From Loxodes magnus (Eukaryota; Ciliophora; Karyorelictea; Loxodida; Loxodidae), in contig CAMPDV010000152.1 of NCBI GenBank assembly GCA_946699065.1, forward strand, positions 62,001 to 126,000: a stretch of DNA of 64,000 nt, written 5' to 3'. Of the stretch, positions 1 through 64,000 are shown one piece after another. The translations under genes were made by a program, and so were the position numbers. Position 1 is the stretch's first letter. Each line of letters opens with the position of its first letter. Below the pieces are notes generated by a model. That model ran no database searches. It saw nothing but the letters and a program-made list of their open reading frames with translations, and had not been told where the DNA came from.

Positions 1-2064
1 TAAACCCAACAAACTGTGATCAGCTTTTCTAAAAATGTCTTTAATAAGACAATCTTAAGTTAACAAAGTCAGAGCCTGAAAATATTTAGCAAATAAAGAA
101 AGTAGAAATATAAAAAAATTTGATTAAAAATAGAATTACCTCTGTTAAAAGCACCTAACCCTAGCAAAGACAGTAATAAGAAGGTTTAAAATAAGCAAAT
201 GAATTATAAAAATACTTAGTAGTAAGAAGTAAGCCGAAAGTCGAAAGAAGCGAAATAAGTAAGTAATATAATAAAGATCTTTTAGTGGATACTTTAAAGG
301 TATAAAATAATCCTGAAACAATTGATAAGCCTTTAAAGAAATAAAGGTCTAAATCTTTTAATATTAGAATCCTGTAAGAAGATTAAAATGATGTCTAAAA
401 CTTTTAGTAATAGTACCAAGCTAATATTGAGCAGACATAATTATCTCCATCTTAGGAGGTTAAAAAAGTAAATGAAGTAAAGCACTATAAAGTTAGAAAA
501 ATGATTAAATAGAGAATATAAACTTAAGATGATAATTCTCAAAAAGAAAACAAAAACAAAAACAAAATTTAAAACTTATTCAACATAGGAGTAATTGAAG
601 CAGATAGTTCCCCTTTTTAAGCTCTAACTCCTTAAAATCCGTTACATTGTCATTAATTTTCTTCTTCTCAAACTCCTTCATCTTAAGAAGAGTAATAGAC
701 ACAAGGCAAAAGATTAAATAGAACAATAACTTCTGTTCATTAGGCTTTTAAAGAAAGATGAAAATTCTATAATTAATAGAAAAATGAAAATTAAGAAAAG
801 CAGTCTAGTCCTACAAGCTCTAATGACAGCCAAAATTTATTTTAGAAATTTTAGCATAAAAAGCAAAATTTAAAAACTAAGTTCAAATCTACTAATGAAA
901 ATAAAAAACATTTTCAAGCTGAAAAAGAAAAATTCAAGTCAAATCAAGCTTCGAATTAGAAATTAGCTAAAAATGTCCAAAACGAACTCAAAAAGTGCTT
1001 TAATCAAAATAACTTCAATAAATAAGCTTATCTTCAAAAGAAAAACTTAGCTAGTATAATTTTATAAACCATTTAAAGTAAAGCATCTTAAGAAATATCC
1101 GATGATGAAAAATATTAACAAACCTTAGCTGATAAAATTAATGAAAAAAATAAATAACAGAAGTCTCCAGGTCAGATATTAGTTTAAAGTAGGCAAGAAG
1201 ATTAGGAGAATGTTTAAGAAACAAATTAAGAACGACTATAATAAGCTAAAAAATTAACTAAGACATAAATTTTTCAATTGAACTAAAAGATTATACTCAA
1301 ATGACTAAGAAAATACTCAAAACCAACCATTGAAACTCTTTGCTACGATAAATTAGTAGATCTTAAATATTTATTATAGAACGAAGAATTACCTCAAAGA
1401 AGACTAAATCATCAAAATTTCGAAAGACAGCATAAATATTTTTTGGAAATTTTCAATGAGTGAATACAGAATCTCTAATATAATTTAGAGCAAATTCCTG
1501 AAGAATTCAAAAAATGGTTTTCAAAAAACTTGGATGACTTATATTAGTGGAAATAAATAGATAGTTTTACAAGGTTTGAAATAAACAGAATATAAAATAT
1601 ATCATAGTCCACAACAAAAGAAAAAAAGTAAGTTTTTAAATTAGATTAATCTATATCATGCTTACTGTTTTTTTTATTTTATCCAAGCATTTCATTCGAA
1701 TAATTTGCTTAAGTCCTTAGAATTGCAAAATAAAGGTTAGCGAAGAAGCTAATTAGAGAAATCTACTTATATTTGGTAGTATTTTGTAGTTTAATATCCT
1801 TCAACGTTTTTTAGCAGTGGGAAGAAATGCAAATGATTATTTTATTATAAAGCAGGATATCATGAACTGAAATTATATCAAGTAATTTAGTGTAAGTTAT
1901 CTTATATTTAGAAGAATAATGATGGAATATCTCATAAGCTAATAACTTGCGAAAAAATGCAAAAAATAGTAGAGAGTGGAGAGCTTAGCAACTAAGTAGA
2001 AAAAGGAATTTATGATTTTGGAAAAAAATTAGTTTCTATCTTTAAGATAGAGTAAAAGGAATGA
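1..2064 (+). CDS. RasGAP-like family protein, member 1 (5' end outside window)
   Basis: Exons run to 1627, then 1645-1891 and 1912-2064. The frame in the first exon begins at base 3, and 674 residues are visible. Introns are 1628-1644 (17 nt) and 1892-1911 (20 nt), both GTAAG...AG. They are placed by alignment with the other four members, and removing them joins the frames. TAA/TAG are Gln and TGA is Trp, for example at 1302-1304 where other members have TGG. The last TGA (2062-2064) is the stop. The N-terminal part is low-complexity, rich in Gln, Lys and Ser. The C-terminal part carries the motifs LKWLRKYSK, CYDKLVDLKYLL, FNEWIQNLQ and, in exon 2, SKHFIRIICLSPQ and NLLIFGSILQ. These weakly resemble the C-lobe of RasGAP/IQGAP domains; that is inference only. 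It is almost identical to the member at 13565 over its GAP-like part. Confidence 0.9.
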
Positions 2065-4601
2065 ACTGTTTACTTTTATACTAATCTTAGCTTATTCAAA
2101 GTAATTAATAATTTTAAAGATAAATCTTTATCTTGAACTATACATGAATTATTTATGATAAATTTACTTATCATTTCTCTTTTTACTTTCGTTTATTCAT
2201 ATTTTATTGAGTAATTGGGTTTCTTTATAATTTAAAAACCAATTATCTTATGATTAATTCTTTATAATCTTTCAATTATATACATAAATAATTTTTTGTA
2301 ATATAGAGTCTCATTTATTACATGCATCTCATATTTATTCTATTTCTAAGAACTTAAGTACTTATTTAAAATTTCATCTTGCTTATAATATTTTTAATTT
2401 AATATATATTTATCAATTTATCTATAATCATTTATTATTATTAATAGTTTTAAAAATAATCAATTTATTTATCACAGAAGATCTCAATTATTATCAAGTG
2501 GCTCGCTTCTGAATTTACTCCTTTTATTTGTTGTACTAAAGTTATTAAACTAAGATTTATTTTAGTTTAGTAGTTAATAAATCTACATATTAATAAGCTT
2601 TCTTTTATTTATGTAGAAAGACTAAGCAAATCTTTCTTAATTGGAGTATATAGCTTGTATATTGTTTCTATAAGCAACCTTTTTATTTATTATTTACTAT
2701 TTACTTTTTTTAATTTCTCCTTAGCTCAAATTAATCCCTTGCTTCGAATATTTATTATGCCAAAGAAGTATCTATGAGTATTATCTTAATCCTGCTGATA
2801 GAACTAATCATTCAATTTTTCTTAATTAACTTTTCTTTTCCTTTCTTACATCTATTTTGGATGTAACTTAGCGAAGACTTTTATCTCATAATTTTTATTT
2901 ATCGTTGCTTTAGTAATTGAGAAAATTAAAGAGTTTTGAAATTAAGCTTTTATTATATTATAAGTTGATGAAGTTATAAAAAATAGGGATATTAATAAGT
3001 GGATTTTTTTACAAATAGCTAATAGTGGCCTATGATAAAACTACCTAAAGCAAGTAATTGAATCACGTTATCTAGATTATGTAAGCAATCAATAAGATAA
3101 AAGTATCAAGTAACGAGTTAAACGTTAAAAGAGAACCTCAAATATATTAGTATTCAAAGTTTAGTACTTAAGATAAAATTTTTTGTAGATAATTTTTTAA
3201 AAAGAGACTATTCAATTTGAAGGTTGCTTATAAAGCTAGATATTTTTTAATTTAATCACAACATAAATTATTATAAAACTTATCTAAAGATAAAATATAA
3301 CATCAGATTCAATTAGTCTCCAAAATTTTAGACAATAGAAGTTAATAAAAAAGAAATATACTTAAATAGATTTTAAAGTTTAATTCCTTTTTTATTTATA
3401 GCAAAGAAATCCTTTCTAGAGCCTTAATAATAAAAATTTATGATAAAACTTAATAAAAAGTCCTTTTATATAGATTGAATAAATCTAAATCATTTTATTA
3501 TACTTTAAATAAGCCTACTATAAATAAAAATGCTCTTACTATAGTTCATCTTTTATCTTTTTACTCTTATATTTTTGTCTATTTATTAATGCTTTATATA
3601 TTAAAGTTTTCTCTTAGATAAAGAATAAATATCATTGTATCTAGTAAGTTTATCCGATTATTAAGATAGTAAAACTAAAAATTAGCATTTCTCTCATTTT
3701 TTTTTATTGAAGATAGCTATAATACTATAAGGCAATAATTTTAAACTTAATTTAGTCTTGGGTTGTTCTTTATTTATAGAGTGAAAATTAGAAGATTTCT
3801 AATTATTTAATAAGCTAAATTAAGAGTTTTAGAGTTCTCAGTTGATGATTTTATGACGAATAAACTCTTTTTAATTGAAGATTCATGAGACTGTTCCAAT
3901 TATCAAAATTTAGCTAGAAATATAAAATTCTAATTATTTTATATAAGCTTAAGCATAATTATTTCTCCTTTAATAATTATAGTAAAACTTTTATTTTAGT
4001 AAATTTATTATTAAGTGATATCTCATAATATATGTTATTTGAATCTTTCTAAACTTATTTTTCAACAATTTTACTATTCTATCTTTCCTTAATTTCCTAA
4101 ATTGAAACTACCTTTTATTTTAAGATTTTTAGCTATAATATGCTTGTTCTTTCTTAACCTTTTTTTTAACTTGATAAAAAGTTGGAAATTGAGTCTTAAT
4201 TATTATATTAGTATACTTAAATGCATCTTAAATGTTTACTCAAATTAAGTTTTAATGCTTATATTAGATATCTAGCATTATACTTTTATATATGTTTTCT
4301 AATTAATTTGAGTTTAATGAAATTATTAAGATAATCATATATAACTTATAACATAACCTAATTTTTATTGGATGCTTTCTTTATTTGGTTTATCACATAT
4401 TAATTTGTTGTTTGAAAATTTGTGCTATTCTAAAACTTGCTTGAATCTTCACTGTTATGAATCTTGATAACTTTAGATAATTTTTTATTAATTTATTCAG
4501 ATAGGTCAAATTCCAATCATTTTCTATTTAATTCATTGACTATTATAAAATATAGGGAACTTATTTGTTTAGTTGGAGTTTTTTTCTTATATAGTTAATC
4601 T
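2065..4601. other. Low-GC stretch with homology to 16640-18840
   Basis: No gene is assigned here beyond the relic listed at 2735-3300. The stretch is the counterpart of 16640-18840 in the second copy of the segmental duplication, and scattered blocks can still be aligned. The rest is very AT-rich with mixed strand skew, and I see nothing definite in it. Confidence 0.5.
2735..3300 (+). pseudogene. Diverged homologue of the gene at 16861-18066
   Basis: Blocks align with 17240-17800. Around 3060-3100 the frame reading RYLDYVSN corresponds to SYLDFVNN near 17580. Neighbouring blocks need indels that change the frame between the copies, and no continuous shared reading frame could be followed. 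It is called a relic because the matching frame breaks, but unseen tiny introns could also explain the shifts. Confidence 0.35.
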
Positions 4602-6304
4602 TCACTTGTACAGTATATTTTAAACATTTTTACCATAGTTTTTCATTATTTTCTTTTATTTTTATTAAAATTTTGATAACTCCGTATTTTATGCCACCTA
4701 GTCGCTTTCAGTATCAACATACCATTACTCTTCGATAGTGAATCTCTTATGCAGTGACTATTGTTCTATATCAATTAGGTTGTTAAGTTATTAGAATTTT
4801 TCTGGGTTATTGTTTTCAGAATTTTAAATTTCCTTTAAGATCTATTCTGTCCAAGAGATTCTTCCTTTAATTTGCTACAGAGACGGGTTTATGGCTGTTT
4901 TTTATTGTAATATTGAGTTTTCAGATTTTATAATTTCCATAATGTTTCTCAGTTCTTAAGTTTGTTTATAAAACTCGGTAATTACCTTTGTTAAATTTGA
5001 TTCTCCATTTAAAGAAGGTAGAGATTGTTGGTGACATCTTACTAAGAGTTTTTAGATTTTGCTGGAGAAGTCTGCTATTTCTTAAGTGCCATTTCATACA
5101 TATAACAAACTAATAGTAAGAAGTATTTATAGGATTTTTAGTAAACGTGATCTTACTTCCTCTCAATAATCTATTTTGTCTATATTTTTATATTCTTTGA
5201 AAATATTATGAACATCATTTGCTTTTTCTAAGACTTATTAAAAATTTGGAGTTTTCTAATTTCTTTAAAATTATAATTCTATTTCTTGATAAGTAGGGAC
5301 CTAAAAAAATTAAATTTAATGGTCTGTTTAGTATAAAGTTAATAGTTTAGAATCATGTACATTTTATAATATCTAATTTATTTAGGGAAGATATCTTAAA
5401 AACCTTATTATATTTTTTTAACTTTTTCGTTAGCTTTACATAAATTTCTCACCTTTTTTTCAATTGATCAATATTCTGATTTATATCTGCAGTTTTATTT
5501 TCTCATTATTTTAAATCATTCAGACTCTTCAAGCTTCACTAGATAAAAGGCCACAAGCATAAAAATAAGTTATTTTCCTTCTAAATGATTGTATTTAATA
5601 ATTCCCCTAAATAGTAACCTTTTCTCCACTCAGCTTTCGGGAAATTAGCTCATAATTTAATGTTCTGAACTTAATGTGGAAGTATACAAATTTGTTTACT
5701 TTATACCTTTTATTATCTATTTGATTGACTTCCTCAGATTCACTTTAGTTTGATAATTCATAAAGCTTAGATATATCATTATAAATAGATACCATAATAT
5801 ACTATTTCAATAGGTCCCTTCACTCTATTATTCATAACTCTTTAGCTTACTAAAAAGCATTATAATTAAAATAACCTTAAAAGGTAAAGCTTGACAAGGT
5901 AATTTATCTTTTTATTATTTGATTATCTTTTATAGCATCAACTCCTTTATTAGGAGCATTACTCCTTTCTAATTGAAGAAAAAATAAAGTCTAGCTTTTG
6001 CTACAATATAGATATAATTGAGTTTTATGCTAGTGAAAGCATGTATAATAAGGCTGACTGATAGTTGTAATTTTAGCTTTATTTAGCCTTTATTTCTTGA
6101 TTTTTGTTTATTGTTAGTTTTTCAGTATGTCTTCCATCATTTTCTTCTGAGATTATAAACATAAACTAAAGGAAATTTGTCTTACCATATCTGATATAGT
6201 TTTTAATCTTGAAGGCCTGCTAAGGTACTAAATACTTTCTCGTTAATACCATATTCTTTAAGAAAATCCCACAAGGTATTTTATATCAATAAACTAGCAA
6301 ACAT
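4602..6304 (-). CDS. Probable coiled-coil protein, exon structure partly unresolved
   Basis: The frame starts at ATG 6304 (MFASLLIQNTLWDFLKEYG), passes a 20-nt GTAAG...TTTAG intron at 6166-6185 that joins the frames, and ends at TGA 4602-4604. That gives 560 residues if no other intron exists. The last 180 residues read as a Gln/Glu/Lys-rich coiled coil with few TGA codons and carry most of the support. In the middle (about 5330-5560) a different frame looks better (for example SLNDLKQWENKTADINQNI), so further tiny introns are likely and the model there is provisional. A diverged counterpart lies at 18838-19790. No function is recognised. Confidence 0.42.
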
Positions 6305-7061
6305 TTATTAAAGCTACTTACATATAAATTAAAGCCTTTACTATCTATTAAGTATATATAAACCGTAAATATCCTAATATATCTATATAACCTTTCTATT
6401 CTAACACTTTATTATCTATATTAGTTTAAAATTTAGACCTGAATATAAAAGGCAATCTCTTTCCATCAAACTAATTTGTTCTTTAGCATTTAAAAATAAT
6501 AAATAGCTTTAAAAGTTTTATATTAGTATAATTTAATAGTTATAGACTAATTAATACTCATACTATTATTAAGATGCTTAATCTGTTTGCTTATATTATG
6601 AATGCGATTTTTTGGATTAGTTAATGATTTATGTAAAAGCTTTAAAATGCTTTTTGGTACTCCTTAAAGTTTTTTTTGTTATTAGACTAAAATTTATCTT
6701 ATCTGAAATTTATAATCGCTTTGTTTAAATAAAAAAAGTCAGAAAAATTCAAAGTATTGTAAATTTAATGTTTTTAAAGATTCAATAAGGAGATTTCAGA
6801 CGCATTAATAAGCCATCCTATCAATTTTAGCATACTGAAACTTGTTTAGATGCTAATTTAGAGAATCGCTTTATTTCCTTTAAGAACTAATATTCACATT
6901 ACAAAAATATAACCTTACTGATTGTTCTAAATTAATATAACTTTATCTAGCTATTGTTTAATATTAATCCTTAACTAAATTCTAAATAATAGATGACCAA
7001 ACTCATAAAATGATGCAAGGCCCATTTTCATGCCTTTTTATAAAAATTGCAGAAATCTACT
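6305..7061. other. Intergenic, with a block conserved in both segment copies
   Basis: No gene was identified. Bases 6860-6990 are unusually similar to 20590-20710, much more than the surrounding DNA, as is the stretch near 6700. This may be regulatory sequence or the flank of the small gene at 7062/21180. Confidence 0.5.
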
Positions 7062-7455
7062 ATGAAGTCAAAAATACTAGATTACGATATGTATCTAATC
7101 ATCTTTAAAATGCAAGATAAGCAAAAAGACCTAAATTCATATATAAAAAGAGAAAGCATAAAAGCAGATATACTAAAGAATTAAATAGTTATAAAATAGG
7201 AAAGCTAAATATAAATTTTTAAGCTATAAGATTATCTTATAACACCATTATTATATCTATTTAAGGAAAAGAACAAATCATACTTTAGAAAAAAATTTGA
7301 AGTTGTTAATTATTTTTAGGATAGAAGCTATATAATTAATTGTTGAGAGATGCTTATAAATTAGTTTCATTAAAGATATTGAAGTGAATAACTTAGAATT
7401 AATAATATGAATTAAATAAGCATATAAAACGTGTAAGATTAAAAGGAAATAGAAA
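7062..7455 (+). pseudogene. Frameshifted copy of the small gene at 21180-21668
   Basis: Starts ATG AAG TCA AAA ATA against ATG AAA TCA AAA ATA in the intact copy. Four of the first twelve codons differ only in the third base. A one-base length difference near 7175 (in the run before GGAAAGC) shifts the frame, and later homology (GAACAAATC...TTTAG near 7270) is in a different phase. The family reading is therefore broken, most simply by mutation after duplication. Confidence 0.5.
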
Positions 7456-7472
7456 AGATGAAAATCATTCAA

Positions 7473-7618
7473 TCATTTATTTTAGAAATTTTTCAGAATA
7501 GTAAGAACAAGTTTGCGATAATCAGTAATTTTCGATTCTACTTCTTATCTAAGTTATTCATTTTCAGCTATTTTTGCATTTGTTCTCCAGTTACAAGTTG
7601 TGAGATATTCCATCATTA
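7473..7618 (-). pseudogene. Relic last exon of a RasGAP-like family member
   Basis: The minus strand matches the third exon of the member at 21711-24868 (NDGISHKLVTGEQMQKIAEN). It has one-base deletions after CACAA and in the A-run before TAGC, so the frame is broken. Homology stops at about 7618, just inside the intron 2 border, and nothing of exons 1 and 2 follows. It occupies the same place relative to its neighbours as the intact member in the second segment copy, so it marks where this copy of the duplication was cut. Confidence 0.8.
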
Positions 7619-7710
7619 AAAAATGGATTTAGTCAAAGTAAATGACTAGGAGTATATTAACAAAAAGAGGCGTATAATGAGAAATAAAATAGGGAGTTTA
7701 AATTAAATTG

Positions 7711-8034
7711 ATGAAAAGAAAATTAGAAGTAAAATGATTCGGATTATCTGGTAAAAAGTATACCAGCAGAGTATCGTTGGATTACTAAAAATCTCTATAG
7801 CTTCCACTTGATTCTATTAATTAGTTAAGTGATTTCGATATTTAAGATTTATAAGGAGATAAATAATAAGAAATTAAAGAGCTTTGAAATAATTTACACG
7901 ATAATAGATATTAGAAAAGAAGTTGTTTGCACCATATTTTTCTTTCTACTAACACTGAACTTAAAATCAATATAAAAAGCTATCAAAGAGCAGAGCATAT
8001 TTAAAAAACTGAGATTACAAAGGCTCATAAGTGA
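7711..8034 (+). CDS. Possible small protein, 107 residues
   Basis: The frame from ATG 7711 to TGA 8032-8034 reads as a charged protein (SDFDIQDLQGDKQQEIKELW...). It is on the purine-rich strand and has two internal TGA codons. It begins less than 100 bases beyond the breakpoint of the segmental duplication and has no counterpart in the second copy. Support is composition only, and I do not recognise it. Confidence 0.3.
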
Positions 8035-11000
8035 TAAATGATTTTAATATCTTAAATCTTAACTCTTAATATTAGAGAAAAAGCTAAACACTAAAAAATT
8101 TAATTATCATATAAAGATCTAGGAAATATTTTTTACAAAAGCAGATTTTCACTCCAAAATTTAAATTAAATAAAGCTAATTTCATCATAGCAATAAAAAA
8201 ACCTTCTAATAAAATCTAAATGAATTTTTTTAATTCTTGCTTTAAATACAAAAAAAATAAGCTAATTAATTCATAAGATGCTTATTCAATTTATAAAAAG
8301 AGTATTAATTAGTTTTTAAGAGTATAAAAACTAGAATGAAGGTAGATCTTAAAAGTAAAACTAAACAGAATTACAGATTGTAGGATCGAAATACAGACAA
8401 ACTTGAATTTGTTAATCCAGATAATCAAAATTTAGTAAAAAATTAAAATAAAGTTGATTCATTGTACCATTGCTTAACTTTAATTAAAAAAAAATTCTAA
8501 TTTTATAATAGTTATACAAAAGTTACCTTAAAATAGCTTTTTCAATAGATTGTTTAAATTTTGCTTTAAACTTGGTTAAATTAAAAAAAAATTGCTCTAT
8601 ATGCAATAATTTTTTACCTTTTATTCATAATTATTTTCATATCTTCACTATAAACTATAAATCCATCGCTTTTTAAAGTTAATCAACAATTTTAACCTAT
8701 TAATTAATCCATAAATTTTAATAACTTTTTTACAATTTTTTATAATTATTCAGTTCCTCTCCTTATATTCATTATTTTTAAGTTCGTATTTTCATCTCTA
8801 ATTTTTATTTTCACTCTTATATTCTTCTTTGGAAGCTAATTTTAACTTTTATTAATAAAGTTCCTTCAATTTTTTAGGCTTATTTTACAATTTAACTTTT
8901 CAAAACTAAAAAAAGCTTCAGGTTTCTTTTTTTCTCTAATTTTTAGTTTATTTTATCTTTCTCTTTAACGTTTTTTAATAATTTGCATATCTCTTATATC
9001 ACAGAAATTCATAATGAATCCTAACAATTTAAATATTTTATCTTTCACCTAATTCAGATAGACACTAGACTAACGATTTCTTTTTATCTTCCAATTTTTT
9101 GAGTTATAAACAAAATAAAATTTTAATTTGCCTAAAGTTAAACCTTACATTTAGATTTTTTTGTCTGAATATCAAAATAAAAGTAAGCTAAAAGCTAAAT
9201 CTTTCTCATTAACTAAAATCGCGTTCCTATTTTATTGCTTAAAAATAGTTTTTAATAACTTTTAAAATATTAAAATGCTTCTAAGAAGATGCTTTAAGAT
9301 ATAACCCTTATTATAAAAAATTTATATACAGAGAATTGTTTCGAAAGATAAGGAAGATTTCAAACTGATTATAAAACTACCTGAATATTAAAAAAATCCT
9401 AAATCCTTAGAATCATTTAAACTTAAGAAAGACTAACATGAGATAGACTATTAAGAGATTAATATATTTGATTAGAAACTTTTTTACTTATATCAACCTT
9501 ATTTTAATTCTCCTTAACTTAAGAAATTTAAATTTGAAAAGCTCTTTATACAACTATCATTTTAGTAGCTTGCTTGCATAAAGATCCGTTAAAAGCATAT
9601 ATTAAAATTAATTTTTCTTAGTTTGCTAGTGAGTTAAAATCATTTCTAAAGCAAACCTTTATTTTAATTTTTAGCAAATAGAAATACAATCTTAATATAG
9701 TTCTAATGTAAATCCTTAGGTTTTCTTAGATATTTATTAAAGCTGAAATTTTTATTTATATTTAGTTTTAATTTCTTTAATTTAAACCAAGATTCAATAC
9801 CAAAAGTCTCTTATTATACTTAAAGAGCTTTTATTGATCTAGTTCGTCTTAAAAAGGAAAGAATATTTATCAAAGGTAGTAAGACTTAGGATCGAATTGC
9901 TTGATTTATTGCTTTAGTTATGGATATAAGCCCTATTTCATTGTAATCAATTGAAAGCTTTAATTTTATTTTTATCACTATACATTTAAAATCCTTATTT
10001 GACTCTCATTCAAATTAATACAAAAGCAATCTTAAAATTAATAAGTTACACAACTTAGGCTACTGAGAGTTTGAAGTACTAAGATCCTAGAGTATATTAA
10101 ATAATAATGAAAGAAGCTATCATTTTTAGACGTTTAATAGCTTAGCTCTTATATAGTTGTCAGTGAAATAGATGAAAGGTATGATATGTATAAGCTTAAG
10201 TAAAATGAAGCATCTTATTTAAATCAGACTCTTCATACAATAACTTGTTATAAAAGGGAACTAAATAGATGGAAAAATTCTATGAGATTTGCTTAATAAT
10301 TTAGTAGGCTAAAATATCAAATTATTAGAGCAGTCTAGCTTTGAATTTGGAAAGCTTAATGTCTAGATTTTAAGATAAATGTTCAATTAAATTCCTTTTT
10401 TATAGTTTTTTGCTTTAGATATTAACAATAATCAATATTAATACTCAGAAGATCAAAGGCAAAAGTAATCCTTATCTTGGTTAATGACTTAGGGTAAAAA
10501 GCTACTCTGAGATAAAAAGCTTCAGCCAATGTTTAAAATAAGAATAAATCTTGAACTTTAATATAAAGATAGATTTATCTCTTTAACTACATTCTATTTA
10601 TAATTTAATAATTTAAGCAATGCTAATGAAAATTATTCTAACTATTTACTAATTATTTAAGACTAATATGCAATTTTTATAGTTATAAGCAAGGATTAAG
10701 TTTTATTAAAGCCAGTCAAACTTCTACTTTAACTAATTTATTACATATAAGAATAAAAATAAGCATTCAAAAAGCTTTTTGGCTTTTTCTGATAGAACTA
10801 GATAAGTTAAAAGTCATCTGGGAGATTTTTAATATAGCCTTTTAACATTTCCTATATATATTTTTCGTTCTTTTACCTTTTTTAATTGAGTTATTTAAAG
10901 AAATTATTTTAAACCAGACAAATAATTACATGATGCTGTTCTTAGTTTGATAAATAAGAACTACATAAATATCTCAAATTTAAAAATTCTATTAGATGTC

Positions 11001-16500: not shown

Positions 16501-16640
16501 GAATATCACATAAGCTAATAACTGGTGAAAAAATGCAAAAAATAGTAGAGAGTGAAGAGCTTAGCAGCTAAGTAGAAAAAAGAATATATGATTTCGGGAA
16601 AAAATTGCTTTCTATTCTCAAGATAGTGGAAGAGAAATGA
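13565..16640 (+). CDS. RasGAP-like family protein, member 2 (complete)
   Basis: Exons 13565-16203, 16221-16467 and 16488-16640 give 1012 residues. Introns are 17 and 20 nt (GTAAG...TTAG and GTAAG...TTTAG). The start is chosen because three other members begin with a similar Met-Lys-rich leader at the same distance. Residues 1-750 are Gln/Ser/Lys/Asn-rich and probably disordered, with the short motif KQRSKTPDF shared with the member at 24868. The conserved part covers about 755-1012. Trp772 and Trp825 are TGA codons and Trp843 is TGG. Exon 2 (residues 880-962) holds SKHFIRIICLSPQ and NLLIFGSILQ, and exon 3 is the family's 50-residue tail (NNDGISHKLITGEKMQKI). The likeness to RasGAP/IQGAP C-lobes is tentative. 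The catalytic Arg-finger region is not recognisable, so it may be a non-catalytic scaffold. Confidence 0.95.
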
Positions 16641-16860
16641 AATGTTTACTTTTATACTCTTTTTAGGTTATATAAAATAAAAAATAACTCAATATATTTC
16701 AACGTAAAAATTAATTTTTAAATGAATGTATCATAATAAAATGCTTTACCATATCTACATTTTTTACTTATTCTTGTACATTTATTAAATAAGCGACAGA
16801 GTTTCGTTATGATCCCAAAAAAATGAATTTTATGATTCTTCTATAAATAATATTTCTATT

Positions 16861-44130: not shown

Positions 44131-44220
44131 TATTTACTTTAAAGCACTGAATTATAGAACAACTTGCTAATATTAGAATTAAGTATAATATTTAATAAAT
44201 TAGGGGATATATAAATATAA

Positions 44221-46732: not shown

Positions 46733-46875
46733 TGCCAAGTTAATTTAGGAATGAGTCTAGATGAGAAAGAAGGATATTATATCTTTGTTGAAGTTGATTA
46801 ATTTAATTTATGTTGGTTTACTTGATGAAGTGTATTAGTTATTTAAATTAAAAGACATAAATTAAATCAAAAAGT

Positions 46876-48063
46876 TCAATCACGTACAGTTTCTCCAATC
46901 TTCTATAGAGTGTTATCAAATGAAGAATCAAATACACATTCTTACTCTATTGACTCTGAATCACTTGAATAAGAATCTTCATTTAAATCGAAATTTTCAG
47001 AACTTAGTTAGTCGCTTTCCTAATTAATTTTTTCAGCGATTCCTCCTAAATATTTATCAAAATCTTTATTTCTTTCCTACTAATCTAGTTTCAACGGACC
47101 AAAGCCAGTCTCTACTTATAGTTTTGAAGGAAAATATTTTTCTGTCAATCCTTGACGGGACTGATCAATAAGCATGACAAAATTATCCTAAATCTAGGGT
47201 TATTCAACCTTCTTTGTAGCTTATTCTGATTTTTTATCCTTTTAAGACACTTCATTTGCTATTTCAGAAATGTTCTTATTCAAGTCCTCATTTAGCTTTC
47301 TTTTCTTCTTTTTATTATTTTCATCCTTTATCTGCTGATCTTATAAAAAAACAGTCATATTCTGATCCTAAGTCAAGGAAAAATCCACCTAAATTTGGGG
47401 TTAACTCTCTAGCTTTATCTTTTCATTTATCTCACTTTCTCTAAAAGGAGAATCTTCACTAGTAAAGTCATTCCACTCTAGGAGTTCTTTGAACTTAAGA
47501 TTAATTTCAGTTAGCGTTATTGCAAATTGCTTCTAATCCTTCAGTTTCTTTCAATTCCCATAGATTTGCTAAAACTTGCTTATAATTAATTCTAAATAAG
47601 CTTCTATCTTTTTAAGTTGCTTCTATTTCCCACACATCAACTTGACAGTGTAGGCGCTGAAATATAAAGCAAACTAGTGATCATTTCATCCTACCCTTTC
47701 TAGCAAAATAAGTCAAGCGACTAGTTCAATATCTGACATCAGTAAATATTATCTTACATTCATCATTTCAGTCTGCAGAGGGAATTAGCACATCAAAGAA
47801 ATTTACGTTTTAAGGTTAAACTGTTCAATCAATTTTTACCCATTTACCGACATTTTCTCATTCAGATATTTTTCAAACGTTTGCTAATACTCAGGACTTA
47901 GTTACTTAACCGCAGAAAGGTGATTAGGAGAAACATAGTTAGAAAACTAGTCTTATTGGTGTTAGAAATGATTCACTGAATCAAAAGGTTATTCAACTTG
48001 GTATAAATTTTACGGTATATGATTTCTATTCATTTACTAATTCATATATTCAATTTCAGACAT
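46876..48063 (-). CDS. Acidic, probably nuclear protein of unknown function, 395 residues
   Basis: ATG 48063 to TGA 46876-46878, one exon. The N-terminal part is Gln/Asn-rich. Residues ~60-210 look folded and helical (SPEYQQTFEKYLNEKMSVN; DIELVAWLILLERVGWND). At least three internal TGA read as Trp (two in that second segment, one in GNWKKL), while TGG is used in EWNDF. Around residue 250 is a basic cluster, NNKKKKRKLNEDL, that looks like a nuclear localisation signal. The C-terminus is Ser/Asp/Glu-rich (NFDLNEDSYSSDSESIEQE). Codon composition is clearly that of a gene. No family is recognised, and a chromatin or transcription role is only a guess from composition. Confidence 0.78.
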
Positions 48064-54000: not shown

Positions 54001-54178
54001 GAAGGTATAATAAAAAGGCTTGAAAATAGAGTATAGCTTTTCATTAAAAGTATAATTTGATAGTTCAAAGACAAACTTAGATGCAGTTTCATTTTTAAGC
54101 TTTTTGTCTACCTTGCTTATAGAAATTCTCTCAATCGGCTATAAATGCACGAGGTAAGGAAAGATAAATCAATAACTC
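48064..54178. other. Unresolved 6-kb stretch
   Basis: No paralogue support was found. Bases 48360-48800 on the plus strand contain a frame that opens with a signal-peptide-like sequence (MKLFVQSNLLFCIFFIWFF), but a second frame is equally good. Bases 50435-50930 on the minus strand read well (NASIFQTSEALTKEGNFAC; SDGQALDFYVRKQKVKPQE) and probably include an exon. Bases 52440-52900 are purine-rich on the plus strand. The rest is AT-rich without visible features. Confidence 0.35.
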
Positions 54179-57100
54179 TCAGTTTAACTACAGAGTATTG
54201 TATAGTTCCTCTAAAAATAGATATCTAGACATTTGACCAGATAACTTAGAGTTACACTGCATTTTAAAGTTTCCCTAATATTTAAATTAAAGTTAAAAAT
54301 AAGATAATTACTATCCTTCCTTACTTTTGAGAGTATCTACCACAAATTTACCAAAGTTAAATATTTTTTGCTTCACTTCTTAAAGAATTTCTGACTCCAT
54401 TATTTTTTCCATTTTATCTCCTTTGATTAATTTATGTGATATGCTATCATTATTTTTCTGAATGCTAGTAAACTTACACTGTTCTAATATAGACTCTTTA
54501 TTATATCTTATCCAGCTAAGTTTAATTCACTTTACTCTTGCTCTATATCTAAAAAGCTGAGAAGAATTTGAAGTTACAAAATGCTTCCAAATATAATCAA
54601 GTTTTACTAGTTTGCTTCCTAGCTAAGCTTCAGCTTACATTTCCAAGGACTTATACATATCACTTTTATAAAGTTTTTTGATAAAATGAAAAAAACGATG
54701 AGCATGATTGATATTTCTCTGCATCATTCTAACTTACTTGTTTAAAGCTTCTTTAGTCGGAGATAAGAACTAAAGGCGGTATTGCTCATATCGAGATAAA
54801 TTGTCTAGTTATCTTCAGTCTTCTAGTCAAATGAAATAACTAACCATCCAATTTATTACCTCTTCAGGCAAATTCTTGAAGTTAATTATTAGATTTTCTA
54901 GCAAATCTTCCAAGATTTCTAAGAACAGCTTCAGCTAGATTTCTTATGCTTCCAATTTTTGCTCATTTTGAATTTACTTTCTATCAGACATTAGATGCTT
55001 TAATTATACTTTTCTATCATAGCAAAGTCTATCAATTGTAGTCTTTGAATACTTTCTTAACCATTTTAACAAGATTTTTCTGTTTTATTGATAGAACACA
55101 TTTTTGACTTACTCCTAGATTCTCTAGTTAATTTGAAGTTGCTTGCTTATCTTTTTATTGTTCTATATTTTCTCTTAGTTTGTGCAGATGTTTAAAATGA
55201 ATCCAAATTATGAGGGATTTATAGTATCATTTTTCTACTATCTTTTTCTCTATGATTCTTCCTCTTTTAGTTCTTCTGATGCTTTACTTTGAATAATGCT
55301 TAAAAACCCAATTGAATGATTATAGATCTTTTACTACTTGTAGCCTTTATTTTTGCATTAGATATATTTATCATTCTATTCAACGGATTCGTTGATGAAG
55401 TTTTCACTGTATGTGTCTATTCCTTATCCTTAAACTTCAAGCCCCATATCCGAGTTTCGATTTTAGATTTAAAGTTCGCTTTGATTATTATGATTAGTGT
55501 GATTTTCAGTTTTGTACTTAGTTTATTCAACAGCACTTTTAGGACTTTTCTATTCATTTTCTAGAGCTATATTATATATTCTACTGTAATATCTACATCT
55601 TTCTTTAAACTTTTAGCGGATATTAGAACGCGTTCTAATAATCTCTTACTTATTAATATTTCTCTGAATCTCTTCAGAAGAAGAAGTTTATTAGGCCGAA
55701 AAAGAGTTTTGAGGAATTAGAAATGAAGATGTACTTTCCTCAGTTGAGTATATAGTTTGATTATTTTCTGTGCTTTCAACTTGAGGCTTAACTTTGCTAT
55801 TATAGTTTTTATCTCTCATTTTTGTTTTCTGAGGTACAATAATGATTGGCTCTTACTCTGATTACTAAGTTTAATGTTCTTATTCACTTGGAAATGTTTC
55901 AATTAATTGAATTTGATATGTTTCACACTTTTTTCCAAAGCTTTCTTATTAGTTTTGTTCGTTCTGCGGAAGCTATTACTTTGAATACTTTGTCTTTAGT
56001 TTCTCCAACGGAGGTAAATTTTTTTGAAACTAAATTTTGAATTTATTCGAGCAATCAGATTGCTTCTCTGGTTTTTCTACTACTATTTTTTACTTTTGCC
56101 GTATGCTTGATTATAGTTTATCTTACTATTTGCAAACTTCATATTATGTAACCTATATTTTATTCTAATTACCTGGACTATTTTTAGCACAGTTTGTATT
56201 GTTTATTTTTATACCTTTGTCTTAGTATCTCTCATCCTTATTTTTTACCACTTAATGTCCAACATCAGGATGTTGTTAAAAGCTATCTAAATGATATTCA
56301 TTCTTTTACTTAGAGTTATTGTCTTTAAAAGGTACTTTTTCGAATATATACTGACTTTAAAACTAACTTAGATTGATAGAATTATCTGATGTATCTAGGT
56401 ATTCATTTTTCTGGAAGTTAGGAGTCATTGATCTTTAATCAACTATTTTAGTCTGAAATTTTTCCTTTTATGACTTAATCAACATGCAAGATTAAGGACT
56501 TTATTCTCGAGGACTTTAATAATGCTGCTTATAAGCATAGTTCACACTCTCATCCTAGATCTGAAGCTAATTTTATAGTTCCTAACTTTTTTTATTGCTT
56601 GCTTTACACGTATTTATCTAATTAAACTTAGGAACGCTTTAACCTATGAAGCGTACTTATTTATTATTTAAAGGGCTTTTATCTAAGGAAGATATACTTG
56701 CCGAGTCTTTGATATAGGAGGTATTTAATGGGTTTGCAGAGTTGTAGTTATGCTTAGCATGTATTTAACCTGAATTACCAAAACTCTAGTTTGATAACGT
56801 GGAATTAGTATGTTTATGTATGCTCATGATACTGTTAGTTAGACTTGGTAACGAAACTTCGCTATTTGTAAATTCAGTCATTTGCTAGTTTGCCTGCTTT
56901 TTGTATTTTACCTTTTTATCAATTTGAAGGAAATCAATTGATTTGTTCAAGTTTTATCTTGTCTTTCTAGCCTTGCTTTTAGGCTTTTATGACATAGTGC
57001 TTTCTTAGCAGATAGGAACGCTAATAGTGACGTCAATTTTTTACAGATTCTTTTAAAAAGGACATTTATCGTAACTTTTATTCAAATCACTCTATTTTTC

Positions 57101-57313
57101 AGACTTTCTAACTTATTGTTTATTAAAGCTCTTGAGGCTTTTAACTATTAAAGAGTTAGAAATATCATCTAAATGCTAATTCTAACCATCTTCTTGCTTT
57201 TGAAGCTACGCTTATATCTTTTGAGTTATTTGGGTCTTTTATAACTTTTGCTACTTGGATATACCAGGTTTTAGCTTGGTATATCTCTTGAGATTATAGC
57301 TGTTTAACTTCAT
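54179..57313 (-). CDS. RasGAP-like family protein, member 5 (displaced stop)
   Basis: Exons on the minus strand are 57313-54738, 54718-54478 and 54457-54179, 1031 residues as modelled. Introns are 19 nt (54719-54737, GTAAG...GCAG) and 20 nt (54458-54477, GTAAG...TCAG). Exon 2 is 241 nt, two codons shorter than in the others. The start MKLNSYNLKRYTKLKPGIS aligns with members 2-4. The domain has LKWLRKYSK (TGG) and NWMVSYF (TGG), but FNEW is replaced by LEDLLEN. Exon 2 reads SKNFIKVICISPW and NLIIFGSILQ. At the position where all other members stop, this one has a Leu codon, and the next in-frame TGA is 42 codons on. It is the most diverged member. Confidence 0.9.
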
Positions 57314-60201
57314 ATTTATTAATGTAATTAAAATTAATTCTCTAGCCAGAAATGTATGTAGCTAACTAAACCTTGACTACACCCTTCAAGCCTACAAAAT
57401 ACAACTTGTTTGCTTCTATAATAAACCCAAAAATCTTTCCTTTCTTTTCTTATTTTCAATTAGCTTCTTTGCTTATGAATACTAATCAAGACATATAGTT
57501 AATTAGGCTATGATTAAGCTACTAATTAGTATAGTAGTTAATTTGTGTACTTTTTCTACTTTTTTTAATAAGTCTTATTTAAACTATTCAATAGCTAAGC
57601 TTCATTTCCTTTTGCTTATATCCTTTTGCTATATGACTATATAAGTATGAATAGCTCCTAAACCTAGCTCTAGCTTTTTAAGTATGACTTATCAACTTTC
57701 TGTTTATCTTCTGAAATTCAGCAAAAGAGCTTTTCTTTTATTGAAGATGGTTAGATTTATGAAACCTAGTATCCTCATATCGCTTAAATAGCAGAGTATC
57801 TCAGATTAAGTGTAGAGAGCTTCTGGATTAATTATTTTTAAGGTATAATAAATGGAAAATTTAGTAGCTTTGTTGATAATTTACCTCATAAGGTAATGCT
57901 GTCCTTATTTAGTATATTAAGAAGCTAATTTCGTTTAACCGTCAGGCTAATATTTTATCAACACTCTCCTTCTATAAAGTTTCTTTTAGCTTACTTTCAA
58001 TAATATACCCAAGCACACTAATCTAGAAATACTAAAGCCAGTAACTAGTTCTTTATAATAGCTCTAAGTACTTAAGCATTATAGTTAATTTTAATCATAT
58101 TCAAGTAAATGAAAAGCATATGATAAGGAGATTACTGAGGGCTGTAATTTATATACTGCGCTATATCAAAAAACCCTTTAAATATCTTAACGCTATTCTC
58201 TCTTTTATTCCTACCACTCAGTCATTACTTAGTTACCTTGCTTTTCTTTCATCTTAATATATCAGTAAAATAGTCCATTCTAACCACTAGAACGTACACT
58301 TAAAGGAGATTGAATCTTTATGATTAAACTATTTATTCTAAACGAACTGACTTTAAATATAGTACAATATATAAAAAATGAGAGTTGAAACTTAATATAT
58401 CACTGTGAAAACTCCTCTAGAGCTACTTATCTTTACACTATGCTTAATTTTGTTTCTAAATATACTAGAAACGTATTAATGATTATTACTAGAGTGACTC
58501 TTCATTAACTTCTTGAATAGACAATGAAGAAAGTATCAACTTGTAATTGAGTCGTTTCATCTTTACTCTTATGGCATTTCTTTGTAAATCCCTTACGATT
58601 TAGCTATGTCTATATAAAGCACCTAATGGCAATTATAGATATCATATATTTATAAAGCTCCTTTGTATTCTCATATGCTCTTAGGTTTATATGATGTCAT
58701 CTGATCTGTTGAGATATGCCTTCTTACTCTCAAATCTAAGTTTATTACTATTCTACTCTTTTTTTTTGTCTCTAAAGAAGGAAAATTTATTCACTATCCT
58801 AGTATAATTTTTAATACATTAAGATATCTTTTTACCCATTTAGTTAACTAAATTATATTAGTATCTAAGTATCTAAGTAATGAGATAGAACTATAGTCAA
58901 AAATGATTACCAAGTATTAGAATTCTAAAATATAAGAAAATGCAGAGACTAGAACTTTCCTTTTTGAACCTGATTAAACTTTCACCCTAACGAGTATTGA
59001 TTAAGTGACTTTCTAATTTCCTTTCAACTATCTGCTTTAATACCCAAACTAGAAAACTTGAAACTGGCTAATTAATATCCAGATTCAAATATCTCAAACT
59101 ACTAATAAAGCTGCTTTCTTTACCTCTCTACTAAGTTAAAAGTTTTATAAAGCAAATTATTCCTTTAAGCTCTAACCTACTTTAGCTATATCTATCTATC
59201 TTAAGCTTCGATAGATATTTAGTACTTACAATCTAATTCTGAAATACCTTAGTTTTATTGCTTCTATCATTTAGAACTTTAAGTCAATCTGTTAGAAGTA
59301 ACACTACTTAATGATTTTGCTTTGGCTTCAGCCACAGAAGCAGCTTTTATTTTTATCTTATTAAAGTCTAATATAAACTTAATATAATCGTTCTTATAGT
59401 ACTTAAGAACTGGATTATTGAATAAGACAATAGATTAACTAGATGCCTTAGTGGTAGGAACAGAAAGAAAGAGAAAGGGAAGCTAGGAGCTAGGATATGC
59501 TTAATCTCAGATCATATCTAGGGAAAAAGAGAGGACTAGAAGTAGATAAATTTGTGAAATGCAAGGTAAAACTCAAAAGTTGAGCTTGTGCAAATCAATT
59601 TTGCTTAATGGACATATGCTACAATGATAGAGTAGATATTGGATAGAGATAAGCTAATACATTAAGTATTTCCTAAGCAAATCTAGAGTACAAAAGGGAG
59701 ATAAAGTGATGGAACTTAAAATACCAGAGATGGTAATCTCGCTAAACTTGGCTCTTATTAAAGTTTAATTGCATGCTTAATAAGCATCACTATGAAAAAA
59801 TAAGGTTTCTCAATATTTCCGTCTCTCAATTCTCAACTTAAGAGAGAATTTGTTAAGTTGAAGCTAGTTCTATTGCTAAATAATTTTAAAGAAAATACAT
59901 ACAAAAGTCTGATCAGCAAACTAAAGATAAAGTGATATTTAAGAGTAGAGAAAGCAGAAAAAAGCATCGTAAGCATTTTATTTTACGAATGCTTTTAAAG
60001 TTAAATTTATAAAGCAAATGAAGAGAAAACTTTATTACAAGATCTTAAGAATCTACAGAGATATCTATAAGTATTAGTTTTAGTTAAACATTAGGCTATA
60101 ATTACTAGTAAAGCTTTCTTTGGATGGTTTTTATAAAAGAATATACCACATTCACCCTTTTAAATAATCTTAATCAAGCTCAATTATCTTACACTACAGT
60201 T
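57314..60201. other. Upstream of member 5, unresolved
   Basis: The minus-strand frame of member 5 stays open for about 150 codons upstream of its start and even contains another ATG near 57770. Paralogue alignment argues against using it. Beyond that I see no gene that I can frame. Bases 58140-60200 are AT-rich with mixed strand skew. Confidence 0.4.
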
Positions 60202-60702
60202 TCAAAGGAGATACTAATTATTTAATATTCGTTTTCTTCTTCTTTCGTAGGCTTAATATCTATCACTCTTATTTCTTTAGTCAAACTTAGAATTTTTAAC
60301 AATACTTTTTCCGATTAAATGCGATCACATATTTATACTTTTAGCAGACTAGAAGTGACTTTAATGATTTAGTTTTTTTCCTAACTGGTTTGCTTACTTT
60401 TTTAGCTATTAGTCTGTAAAAATTGCATAGCTAGGATCTTCATCCTAATATATAATCTAAAGCTATCTTACTCTGAGCTATATAAGTCCAACGTTGTATT
60501 AATCCAGGCTTTTTTCTTCGTCAGTGTTTTTTACATTTTATAAGCATTCCAGCTTCTTCTGATCTAGTTATGAATATACCTAGGATTTGTTGACTAATTA
60601 GATCTTCAGCTCAATTTAAAGAGCAATCCATATTTCATATCCCTTCGACTTATACTAAGAAGGATACTTTATGATACTAAAATACCAATCAAACACAGGC
60701 AT
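60202..60702 (-). CDS. Possible Lys/Gln-rich protein, 166 residues
   Basis: The frame runs from ATG 60702 (MPVFDWYFSIIKYPSQYKS) to TGA 60202-60204, with one internal TGA. It reads as a charged helical protein (QVYSQLDQKKLECLQNVKN; YQDEDPSYAIFTDQQLKKQ) with a basic end (RYQAYERRRKRILNNQ). The pyrimidine-rich plus strand agrees with a minus-strand gene. An upstream exon may exist, since a GTATAAAG...AGTTAG stretch of 29 nt precedes the start. No family is recognised. Confidence 0.4.
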
Positions 60703-61362
60703 TTGAAAGCTAACTTAGATTATACTTTTGCTTTATACCAAAATCATCACTCATATCTACTTCATTGGATATAAACATGAAAAAGAATACCAAAAGATGA
60801 AGTTGGGACAATGATGCTAACTAAGAAAAAATATAAGTAAAACTGTAGTTAGCAGTACTAAGAGATGAGAGCAACTACAATGAAAATAATCCATGAGTTA
60901 ACTTAAAATCAGAGAAGATATAAAAATCTGATTTTCATCAGCAAACTAGAGATGAAAAATCCAACTAAAAAACGTATTTAAGTACAGGCAAGAAATATTA
61001 AGATAGTCTATTTCCTAAAGCTTTGGTAAGCTAGAGTTTAAAGCTTCCATTCCCTTCTTTTATTACTGAAGATATCTCTTTGTTTAGTACCTTCATACCC
61101 TTACTATAACCTCTGCGATCAACTTCATCTTTCTTTTCAATCCAGTTATAATTTTAATCCTAAGTATAGCTAATCCCACTAATACTCTTCCCTAATAATT
61201 AGTATTCTAAGATAATAAATTATTATAAAAGAACTTAAGCATTTTGATTATTAAAGCATCTAATTGAAATACCCTAAACTATAAAACTAGCAATATCCAT
61301 TGAAAGTTTATACTCAAAGCTAATTATAAAGTAACTTTATTTTAGATTATCATTAGTTTAAA
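60703..61362. other. Upstream region of the kinase gene
   Basis: Between the divergent genes at 60702 and 61363. AT-rich, with no clear promoter element that I can name and no other gene. Confidence 0.4.
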
Positions 61363-63837
61363 ATGACTTCTGAAGAAAGCTTTAAGGGAAGAATAGTGGG
61401 TAATTATCTTCTGAAGGAGAAACTAGGATAAGGCTAGTATGGTGTAGTTTACAAAGGTATAAATATAGATAAAGGCTAGCCAAATGGAGTGATAGCTATT
61501 AAGTAAATAAAGAAGGCTGATCTTAATGATTACTAGAAGAATACGTTTTACTAGGAGAAAAAGAACTTGTCTAGTCTTGCTGATCATCCAAATATAGTGT
61601 AGTTTATAGAAATGCTGCAAACATAGAATAATCTATACATAGTGATGAAGTATTGCAATGGAGGAACTTTGTACTCTTATTGCTAAAAAAATAACTACAA
61701 GGTAGAAGAAACGAAAGTTCAAGTTTTCGCTGTGTAAATTTTGAGTGGTCTGAAATATATGAGATAAAAGGGTATTATACATAGGGATTTAAAACCTGAG
61801 AACATATTGCTAAACTTTGTCTCTGATTAAATATAATTAAAGATTAGTGATTTAGGATTATCGAAAGCTTTAAAGGATGGAGATTATACATTTACCGCAT
61901 GTGGAACTCCCTTGTTTGCATCTCCTGAAATACTGAATCTAGAAAATTATGACTTTAAAGCAGATATATGGTCATTTGGTGTTATAGTCTTTGAAATGCT
62001 AACAGGATCTCTTCCTTACATAGCAAATTCAATACCTAATTTAATAAAAACGTTTGATCAATAACTTCCTTGAAAAACTCTGAAAATGTCAGAAGAAGCA
62101 AAGGATTTTTTGAAATAGATATTTATAGCAGATTAAAAGAAACGAAAGGATGTCTTTGAGATATACGAACATACCTGGATAAAGAAAGGACTTTAAATGA
62201 TGAATGCAGAATACTTAATTAAACTGAAAGAAATCGAGATGAATATTCAGTAATAGGCTATTTATGTATAGAATGAAGCTAAGAAATTATTATAAAATGC
62301 TATAGGATTCTAGGAATAAGTTCAACCTAGTTAGCAAATAGTAGGGTAGAAAGAATATCAAACATCCTAAGTTCAGAACTACCAAGCATCAGAAACTCCA
62401 AATTACCCTTAGAACTAAAATTAAGATCACATTGGTTAAGCACACTCTGTTGAACCTCAGATATCTAATGCTCAATAAGCTTAAGATAATGAGGAAATGA
62501 AGTAGAAATGGAAAGATTAGAGTTAGTAGAATTAACTCCCTAGTGTAATAAGCAATCTAAATAAATAGCAATAATTAGTGTAAGAAAGAGTTTAGAAAAA
62601 TAACTAAGAAGGAATAAGTCATACCAACAATATCCAATAAAATATGCTTAAATAAAAATACAAACAGGACGAGGAAAATTATCTTCAAGAGTGAAATTAA
62701 AAATAGATAAAATCGAAAAAAAATTCAGAAGAAACTTCTGATGTCTAAGTATATTCTAATAGCGCAATTGAGTAGTAAGTTAACACTTATTAATTAAATA
62801 CTAACGTTAAGTAAGATAAACTTAAACTAATTAGTAATAAAATCGTATATTATTAATAAATGTAGCCTAATAAATAAACTTAGGCAGTCTTATAAGAATA
62901 AGGTTACAGATAAAACTTTCAGAAAAATGAGTAGAAATAGAAACAGATCTTCAGTTATGAATAGTAAATTCCATAGAAATAGAAAATAAAACAAAGCAGT
63001 GAGATAATCTAAATACTTTAATAGAAACCATCTCTTTATAGTGGAGTGAATCAGCAAAATATAATTGAAGTTTAATCTCCTCAAGTTATTAGAAAAAATG
63101 AAAGAAATCAATAGAATTAATGAAAGGAAGGGTAAAATATAATGTTCTAGTAGAATGTTTAAGCACTCTATTAAAAAAAGGAGGTAGAAATAGCAAGCCA
63201 ATAAAATTCATATGAAATTCAATTTTTCAAGGAACAAATTTAAAAATAAATAGAAGGGTTAAAAGATTCGATATGAAAAAGCAATTTTAGACATAAGATC
63301 ATCAAGTAAATGATTAATCTGTAGAAGATTGACAAAGATTTCACATACAACATGTAGTTCGCTCTAATGATAAAATACTTTTCTGCTATTACTTTGTTGA
63401 GATAATTGCAACAAACATATATGCTCATAAGGGGATTAAAAAATAGTTTTATGATAGAAAAAGAATCAAAATAAGAGCTTTAAAAATGAATTTAAGGTAC
63501 TTTATAGAACTTTGTCGAAAACATTAAATTTGGGGGAAAATTAATTAAGGAAATTTATTTTTTTACCATCCCCAATTGAAAGAGCTATAACATATGATAA
63601 CTAGATAAACTTGTACTGACAGAAACAATTAATTTACTTCTATAAATAATAGTCAAAATTTAAAGTTATCAAAAGTTAGGTAGCAAATAGAATGAAATTA
63701 AAATTTTTTTCTTAAGCATGAAAATAATTCTAGAAGAAATAATTTACGAGTCCAATAAAGAGGAAATTAAGAAAGATATACAAAAAATTACTGATATATT
63801 GATAGAGAAATTAAGACGGAAAAATTACAAGAACTGA
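61363..63837 (+). CDS. Ser/Thr protein kinase, ULK/NEK-like, with long C-terminal region
   Basis: ATG 61363 to TGA 63835-63837 gives 824 residues with no intron. The kinase domain covers about residues 12-270: Gly loop GQGQYGVV (22-29), Lys47 in AIK, Glu65, catalytic HRDLKPEN (140-147), DLG instead of DFG (163-165), activation segment CGTPLFASPE (180-189) and DIWSFG (201-206). It should be active, phosphorylating Ser/Thr. The layout and GTPLFASPE resemble Atg1/ULK and related ciliate kinases, but the exact subfamily is not certain. In-frame TGA occurs at codon 237, inside the kinase domain (LPWKTLKMSEEAKDF), and at 444, 587, 638, 709, 739 and 745, all read as Trp. The last 79 sense codons before the stop contain none. 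Residues 290-570 are Gln/Asn-rich. Residues 640-820 form a helical, Lys-rich region without a recognised domain. Confidence 0.93.
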
Positions 63838-64000
63838 TATTCTCCTACAAGTGATATTAATTTTTTATTTAGCATTAAAATAACTAAATTTCATTAAAGC
63901 AAAATATAAATGAAACGAAAAATTTTCATCTAAGCTATCTAGTCAAAATTATTAAAAATATAATAATTAATCTTCTGAGAAAGTTTCCTTTATAAACATT
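63838..64000. other. 3' flank of the kinase gene
   Basis: AT-rich sequence after the stop codon. No feature is seen. Confidence 0.5.

Follow-up and report, generated by a model that had tools for sequence, protein, structure and literature searches.

The window analysed here is a stretch of 64,000 nucleotides of DNA assigned to Loxodes magnus, a karyorelict ciliate (assembly GCA_946699065.1, contig CAMPDV010000152.1, here C152:62001-126000). It is poor in guanine and cytosine (GC content 25%, 74.8% AT) and carries a five-copy gene family and a Ser/Thr protein kinase gene, and the subject of this text is the genetic code in which such genes are written. If TAA, TAG and TGA are all taken as stops, none of the six frames holds a stop-to-stop run of at least 150 codons (runs cut by the window ends excluded). 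With TGA as the sole stop, the six frames hold 185 such runs, the longest of 852 codons. We conclude with near certainty that the window is nuclear Loxodes DNA, most likely from the macronucleus of L. magnus, and that it follows NCBI code 27, in which UAA and UAG mean glutamine and UGA means tryptophan as well as stop. This karyorelict code is already published for L. magnus. Tests beyond the window drew on the assembly to which it belongs, which comprises 705,730,643 bases and 7843 contigs.

The gene family and the kinase gene

A codon-usage model picked out nine segments of the window: the protein kinase, the five family copies (c1 to c5) and three others, two of which were examined as orphan genes; 38268–38570 is among the segments. 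The codon-usage score was rejected as proof of coding, as a reversed copy of the window scored 87.4 and the window itself 87.3. The features that bear on the code are these:

3–2064, forward strand: family copy c1, 5′ end cut by the window; exons 3–1627, 1645–1891 and 1912–2064; introns 1628–1644 (17 bases) and 1892–1911 (20 bases); stop TGA 2062–2064
13565–16640, forward strand: family copy c2, 1012 amino acids; introns 16204–16220 (17) and 16468–16487 (20); stop TGA 16638–16640
21711–24868, reverse strand: family copy c3, 1040 amino acids; introns 22145–22127 (19) and 21879–21864 (16); stop TGA 21713–21711
30664–33680, reverse strand: family copy c4, 991 amino acids; introns 31104–31086 (19) and 30838–30817 (22); stop TGA 30666–30664
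54308–57313, reverse strand: family copy c5; introns 54737–54719 (19) and 54477–54458 (20); TAG TAA 54313–54308 at the homologous end
54181–54179, reverse strand: next in-frame TGA of c5, with no GC fall after it
7452–7617, reverse strand: c6, a last-exon fragment of a sixth family copy; TGA 7475–7473 at the homologous place
61363–64000, forward strand: Ser/Thr protein kinase gene, domain at about 61408–62181, one frame to the window end; end candidate TGA 63835–63837

All five copies change frame near their 3′ ends, and a GT..AG stretch, the pattern by which introns were sought, lies at both changes in each copy. In the order c1 to c5, the first intron measures 17, 17, 19, 19 and 19 bases and the second 20, 20, 16, 22 and 20 bases. 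Their removal restores one phase in all five copies and yields an alignable protein, with a second exon of 247 bases in four copies and 241 in c5. The original prediction had described the five members as continuous; this has to be corrected, as each needs two GT..AG introns of 16–22 bases. These tiny introns restore the frame in five copies, and the window is therefore nuclear eukaryotic DNA. Their lengths agree with those of L. magnus and not with the 15–16 bases of heterotrichs. For L. magnus, the accessible sections of the genome paper give a macronuclear assembly of 706 Mbp and introns with a mean of 19.3 and a mode of 17 bases, those under 16 being negligible; for heterotrichs, the class of Condylostoma, they give ~95% of introns at 15 bp and the remainder at 16 (PMC11441545).

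In the conserved part of the family, nonsynonymous divergence (dN) is 0.29–0.45 and synonymous divergence (dS) exceeds 2.5 or is saturated; for c1 and c2 the values are 0.038 versus 0.100. Comparison of the sequences confirms purifying selection on the five paralogues when TAA and TAG are read as glutamine and TGA as tryptophan. The five models contain 292 TAA, 166 TAG and 22 TGA in frame among 4748 codons (c5 counted to its next TGA). Full copies in the window are about 1000 amino acids long, and the family has 67 matches in the assembly; all matches listed were taken as loci (L049–L115), five of them being c1 to c5 and many being near-identical. More copies lie upstream on the same contig, at C152:16607, 22922 and 38820. 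The family has no Pfam match over the cut-off. With residues 740–1012 of c2 as query, no homologue elsewhere was found at an expectation value (E) of 0.01 among 1273 candidates from the protein collection, and a DNA pattern derived from c1 and c2 gave 0 matches in viral and genome contig collections that may exclude the window's own genome.

The kinase domain matches PF00069 with 220.7 bits, and its best relatives among solved sequences are CDPK, AMPK and ULK kinases. Reading through many TAA and TAG codons and one TGA, it bears out the earlier claim of a continuous domain. The claim that this gene ends on TGA is less certain: nine in-frame TGA occur up to the window end, that at 63835 being the best candidate. 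The gene has a long glutamine-rich tail, encoded mostly by TAA and TAG.

TGA as a tryptophan codon

For the pairing of codons within the family, stop codons were masked before alignment. In the conserved C-terminal part, TGG faces TGA in 17 of 33 aligned sense codons, the next residue being aspartate with 5; the 17 pairs are spread over four alignment columns and do not count as independent observations. The out-of-frame controls put TGG opposite TGA in only 0 of 35 and 1 of 81 cases.

Kinase domains from the assembly provide a second test. From 5592 candidates, 136 were scored; of these, going down the list, the first 40 domains containing one or more TGA were taken. They were compared with a hidden Markov model (HMM) built from 120 listed homologues, of which the named ones are nearly all ribosomal S6 kinases. 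Over 55 aligned TGA, tryptophan scores +3.01 bits per site and the next residue, tyrosine, 0.09. At the position of the conserved tryptophan, 21 domains have TGA, 16 have TGG and 3 have TTT or TTC; the share of TGA among these tryptophans is biased upward because domains were chosen with at least one TGA, and the residue faced is unaffected by this choice. The kinase domain of the window was rejected as proof in its own right, its single TGA site giving 224.5 bits as tryptophan, 224.5 as arginine and 223.7 as cysteine. As judged from aligned homologues, the family columns and the genome-wide tests, not the window kinase alone, settle the meaning of TGA as tryptophan. By the same kind of comparison, the window by itself shows tryptophan well and glutamine fairly well.

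TAA and TAG as glutamine codons

Four of the nine histone H4 genes of the assembly hold one TAA or TAG each, and each of these four codons coincides with one of the query's two glutamines: the glutamine of NIQGI is encoded by two TAG and one TAA, that of KRQGR by one TAG. In eRF1, TAA encodes the glutamine of the GGQ motif, which is needed for peptide release. Within the PF03464 domain of the protein, the four compared TAA all face glutamine in human eRF1, and two of the four do so in the eRF1 of entry 4crn.

In the conserved part of the family, TAA faces glutamine and glutamate 26 times each among 113 pairs, and TAG faces them 16 and 13 times among 83. Relative to residue frequency, glutamine is enriched 5.25 times at TAA and 4.4 times at TAG, and glutamate 2.94 and 2.0 times. 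The BLOSUM sum over weighted pairs is likewise higher for glutamine than for glutamate (35.0 vs 29.2 at TAA, 18.5 vs 12.0 at TAG). An out-of-frame control cannot serve as a plain negative here: TAA and TAG face CAA or CAG in 0 of 210 cases in frame +1 but in 46 of 168 in frame +2, because the first base there is a third codon position. The control indicates that the enrichment at TAA and TAG reflects a silent T/C change of the first base, which fits glutamine, rather than protein similarity.

With TAA and TAG read as different residues, the window kinase domain scores 224.5 bits for glutamine, 221.4 for lysine, 219.6 for glutamate, 216.4 for serine, 199.5 for tyrosine and 192.2 for leucine. 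Over the 40 kinase domains, the HMM gives 0.72 and 0.74 to lysine at TAA and TAG, 0.69 and 0.74 to glutamine, and 0.43 and 0.44 to glutamate. The reference codons are informative in this respect: CAA and CAG themselves score 0.71 for glutamine, 0.69 for lysine and 0.46 for glutamate, whereas AAA and AAG give lysine 1.08, and GAA and GAG give glutamate 1.13. In these alignments the profile at TAA and TAG is that of CAA and CAG, unlike that of AAA and AAG or of GAA and GAG. Measured against other Loxodes kinases, glutamine is enriched 4.3 times at TAA, 4.55 times at TAG and 4.83 times at CAA and CAG.

TGA at gene ends

Each of the nine H4 genes ends YGFGG-TGA and none ends on TAA or TAG. In the family, TGA stands at the homologous end of c1 to c4. 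The last exon was found in 67 of 67 loci, with a TGA at most 13 codons from the same column in 58 and at the identical offset in 51; distinct ends number 39 among the 58 TGA-ended members and 7 among the other nine. TGA is absent from the 20 codons before the stop in all 58 ends, as is TGG, among copies that are related to one another. Within the final 10 codons ahead of the TGA, TAA occurs in 6 and TAG in 16 of the 58 members.

Conservation between close copies also falls at this point. For c1 and c2, 520 of 540 bases are identical over nine 60-base steps (−600 to −61). The step just ahead of the TGA has 47 identical bases of 60, and the four steps that follow it have 45, 36, 38 and 35 of 60. 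For c3 and c6, identity is 56 of 58 and 52 of 60 at first; the step that spans the TGA has 39 of 60, and beyond it the figure is 23 of 60. GC content is 0.25–0.35 in coding parts of the window versus 0.15–0.20 in the 60 bases that follow TGA at seven gene ends. For L. magnus, the sections of the genome paper at hand report a coding GC of 33.5%, a 3′-untranslated GC of 18.6% and UGA as the sole stop, with UGA and UAA, not UAG, depleted in the 20 codons before stops (PMC11441545). A coding score falls at the TGA ends too, mostly through composition; it was trained partly on the ends judged, and the test was repeated leaving each gene out. The codon score before the stops of c1, c2 and c4 was rejected as proof, as other frames score near the true one. 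At the level of DNA, the comparison of homologous genes and their ends shows both what the codons mean and that TGA serves to end genes.

Nine members lack the TGA. Besides c5, these are eight with TTA, TCA, GAG, GGT (in four) and GAT at that offset. The four GGT members (L074, L081, L083 and L093) are near-identical, and a two-base insertion relative to L082, seen by eye, puts their terminal TGA out of frame. The GAT member is frame-shifted by eye as well, so that five of the eight look frame-shifted.

Observations that weigh against code 27

Several observations do not favour this reading. In the N-terminal part of the family, where conservation is poor, TGG is never found opposite a TGA column, which lowers the count to 17 of 54 over the whole alignment, and the BLOSUM sum there prefers lysine to glutamine (56.2 vs 16.2 at TAA, 38.5 vs 19.2 at TAG). 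In eRF1, seven TAA and TAG codons lying further upstream align with K, S, L, K, V, E and S in the human protein. The kinase HMM alone cannot separate lysine from glutamine at TAA (0.72 vs 0.69). The codon-score fall at gene ends is largely composition, the out-of-frame score being nearly as high before some stops. Finally, no glutamine suppressor transfer RNA (tRNA) was found with a CTA anticodon pattern or in a search for Tetrahymena-type tRNA-Gln. The CTA pattern (anticodon loop TCTAAA) occurs in four places (L125–L128); ARAGORN reports tRNA-Arg(TCT) at one of them and makes no call at the other three, and Rfam sees a tRNA in two of the four, the second passing the cut-off narrowly. The Tetrahymena-type search gave zero matches and was run without a positive control.

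Copy c5 belongs to the same list. It reads TAG TAA (54313–54308) where its relatives have TGA, with TAA at exactly offset 6, and is the single candidate for TAA at the stop place among the 67 members. GC content is 0.20 in the 60 bases after this TAA versus 0.33 after the next TGA. With c5 left out of training, its coding score drops from 17.2 to −1.0 across the TAA; the next TGA, with −0.7 ahead of it and −4.6 behind, shows no such fall. A third intron skipping TAG TAA was considered and rejected: by eye, no GT..AG of 16–22 bases restores a nearby TGA. A single step separates TGA from TAA, TTA and TCA alike, so that c5 resembles one case among several losses of the stop. The earlier statement that all five members end on TGA accordingly applies to c1 to c4; its companion, that TAA and TAG are nowhere required as stops, probably holds, with c5 as a possible exception.

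Alternatively, UAA may keep some terminating power near the poly(A) tail in Loxodes, in which case c5 would end at its TAA and the code would not be purely UGA-only. We consider this improbable, judging from the gene ends. Its odds were lowered by the finding that the c5 score fall is mainly composition, other frames scoring close, and the 6 of 58 members that carry TAA within the final 10 codons ahead of a retained TGA weigh against it. If it were true, the published pre-stop depletion of UAA, and not UAG, would share the same cause. The accessible sections of the L. magnus macronuclear genome paper contain no description of a TAA at the stop place as in c5 (PMC11441545).

Known codes and alternative explanations

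As far as the sources consulted describe it, NCBI table 27 (Loxodes and Parduczia) has the same TAA and TAG as glutamine, TGA as tryptophan and stop, introns of ~17–20 bases and a GC drop after stops; no difference from this code was found in the window's assembly. The original prediction was right in proposing these assignments: all four in-frame H4 codons fall on glutamines, as does that of the eRF1 GGQ motif, the kinase tryptophan column carries TGA, and all nine H4 genes end on TGA. Its choice of table 27 and Loxodes is upheld by the same TAA and TAG at glutamines, TGA at the kinase tryptophan and H4 ends, together with introns like those of L. magnus.

Table 28, the code of Condylostoma magnum, is very unlikely. 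According to the sections of its description at hand (PMC4967479), all three codons are sense inside genes, TGA ends genes as in the window, and TAA and TAG end genes as well; introns of this class measure 15–16 bases. Copy c5, with TAG TAA at the homologous end and GC falling there, would fit such a code. Against it, TGA ends nine of nine H4 genes and 58 of 67 family members, with one TAA candidate, and TAA and TAG occur within the last 10 codons before the TGA of 6 and 16 of those 58. Nine of the ten window introns are longer than 16 bases (one is 16, the rest 17–22).

Chance read-through of pseudogenes, or of errors in the assembly, is highly improbable as an explanation of these codons. 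Decayed copies do exist, namely c6, a copy of a small protein gene at 36.3 kb and the five apparently frame-shifted family members; however, the conserved part of the family is under purifying selection, and H4 and eRF1 carry such codons too, which speaks against this explanation at the level of the whole genome. Still less credible is the code of the dinoflagellate Amoebophrya sp. ex Karlodinium veneficum, whose three sense assignments are identical in the sections seen (PMC6394959), since that genome has 65.2% AT and 127 Mbp in the data consulted (PMC12005148) versus 74.8% AT in the window and 706 Mbp in the assembly. A Blastocrithidia-type code (TAA and TAG as glutamate, TGA as tryptophan, TAA as stop) is scarcely conceivable: glutamate is second best at TAA and TAG in the conserved family part, but glutamine beats it there and in the kinase, the H4 and eRF1 codons lie at glutamines, and H4 is ended by TGA, not TAA.

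A possible mechanism

The eRF1 copy of the assembly that was read keeps NIKS and has FFLCENTF where the human protein has LYLCDNKF, which we take to be FxCxxxF in place of the YxCxxxF motif. The eRF1 matches in the assembly comprise two on contig C196, at 20094 and 54994 (~35 kb apart), and a weaker third on contig C2.

Following the literature, glutamine tRNAs would read UAA and UAG, and a tryptophan tRNA would read UGA. As 3′ ends are very short, eRF1 would win at UGA only near the poly(A) tail, and a UGA far from the message end would mean tryptophan. The sections consulted of two papers report very short 3′ ends and propose that a poly(A)-bound protein nearby lets eRF1 win (PMC4967479, PMC11441545).

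Other features of the window

40989–41456, forward strand: small protein, 155 amino acids; stop TGA 41454–41456; by eye, the start resembles a signal peptide and the end is hydrophobic
36297–36531, forward strand: second copy of the small protein gene, decayed and carrying insertions and deletions; TGA 36529–36531
44221–44293, forward strand: tRNA-Lys (CTT), the sole tRNA detected in the window and its sole RNA gene at Rfam cut-offs
46876–47598, reverse strand: orphan, probably coding by codon usage only; TGA 46878–46876; start not fixed
4602–5030, reverse strand: orphan, possibly coding by codon usage only; TGA 4604–4602; start not fixed

The small protein gene at 40989 was added by a looser codon-usage score. 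It had been called chagasin-like and said to end on TGA. The end is confirmed and the identity is not: PF09394, which we take to be the chagasin family of Pfam, has no match up to E 5 in 40989–41453, and Pfam gives only PF12386 (E 0.038), below the cut-off. Pfam was searched in six frames over 2101–12000, 16701–21601, 25001–30000, 34001–54001 and 57401–61401, and in chosen frames only elsewhere. Weak matches to PF03896 (E 0.0013), PF17420 (E 0.0016) and PF01407 (E 0.006) were each below their own cut-off. Rfam finds no ribosomal RNA in the window.

Matching pieces recur in the same order, ~14–14.6 kb apart, in 1–7617 and 14563–21857: c1 with c2, 4070–4342, 6645–6991, 7059–7315 and 7452–7617. 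By its layout this repeat resembles a tandem duplication. A second tandem duplication, of 35205–36592 and 39900–41516 (4.7–4.9 kb apart), is likely and carries the small protein gene.

Significance

A code that lacks a dedicated stop codon argues strongly against the view of a frozen code, and for L. magnus it has already been published. What remains of interest in the window is the family, which gave no homologue in the protein collection searched, and the change of the c5 stop from TGA to TAA. Copy c5 offers a natural experiment on whether UAA has kept a stop function in a karyorelict, with its 58 TGA-ended relatives as controls.

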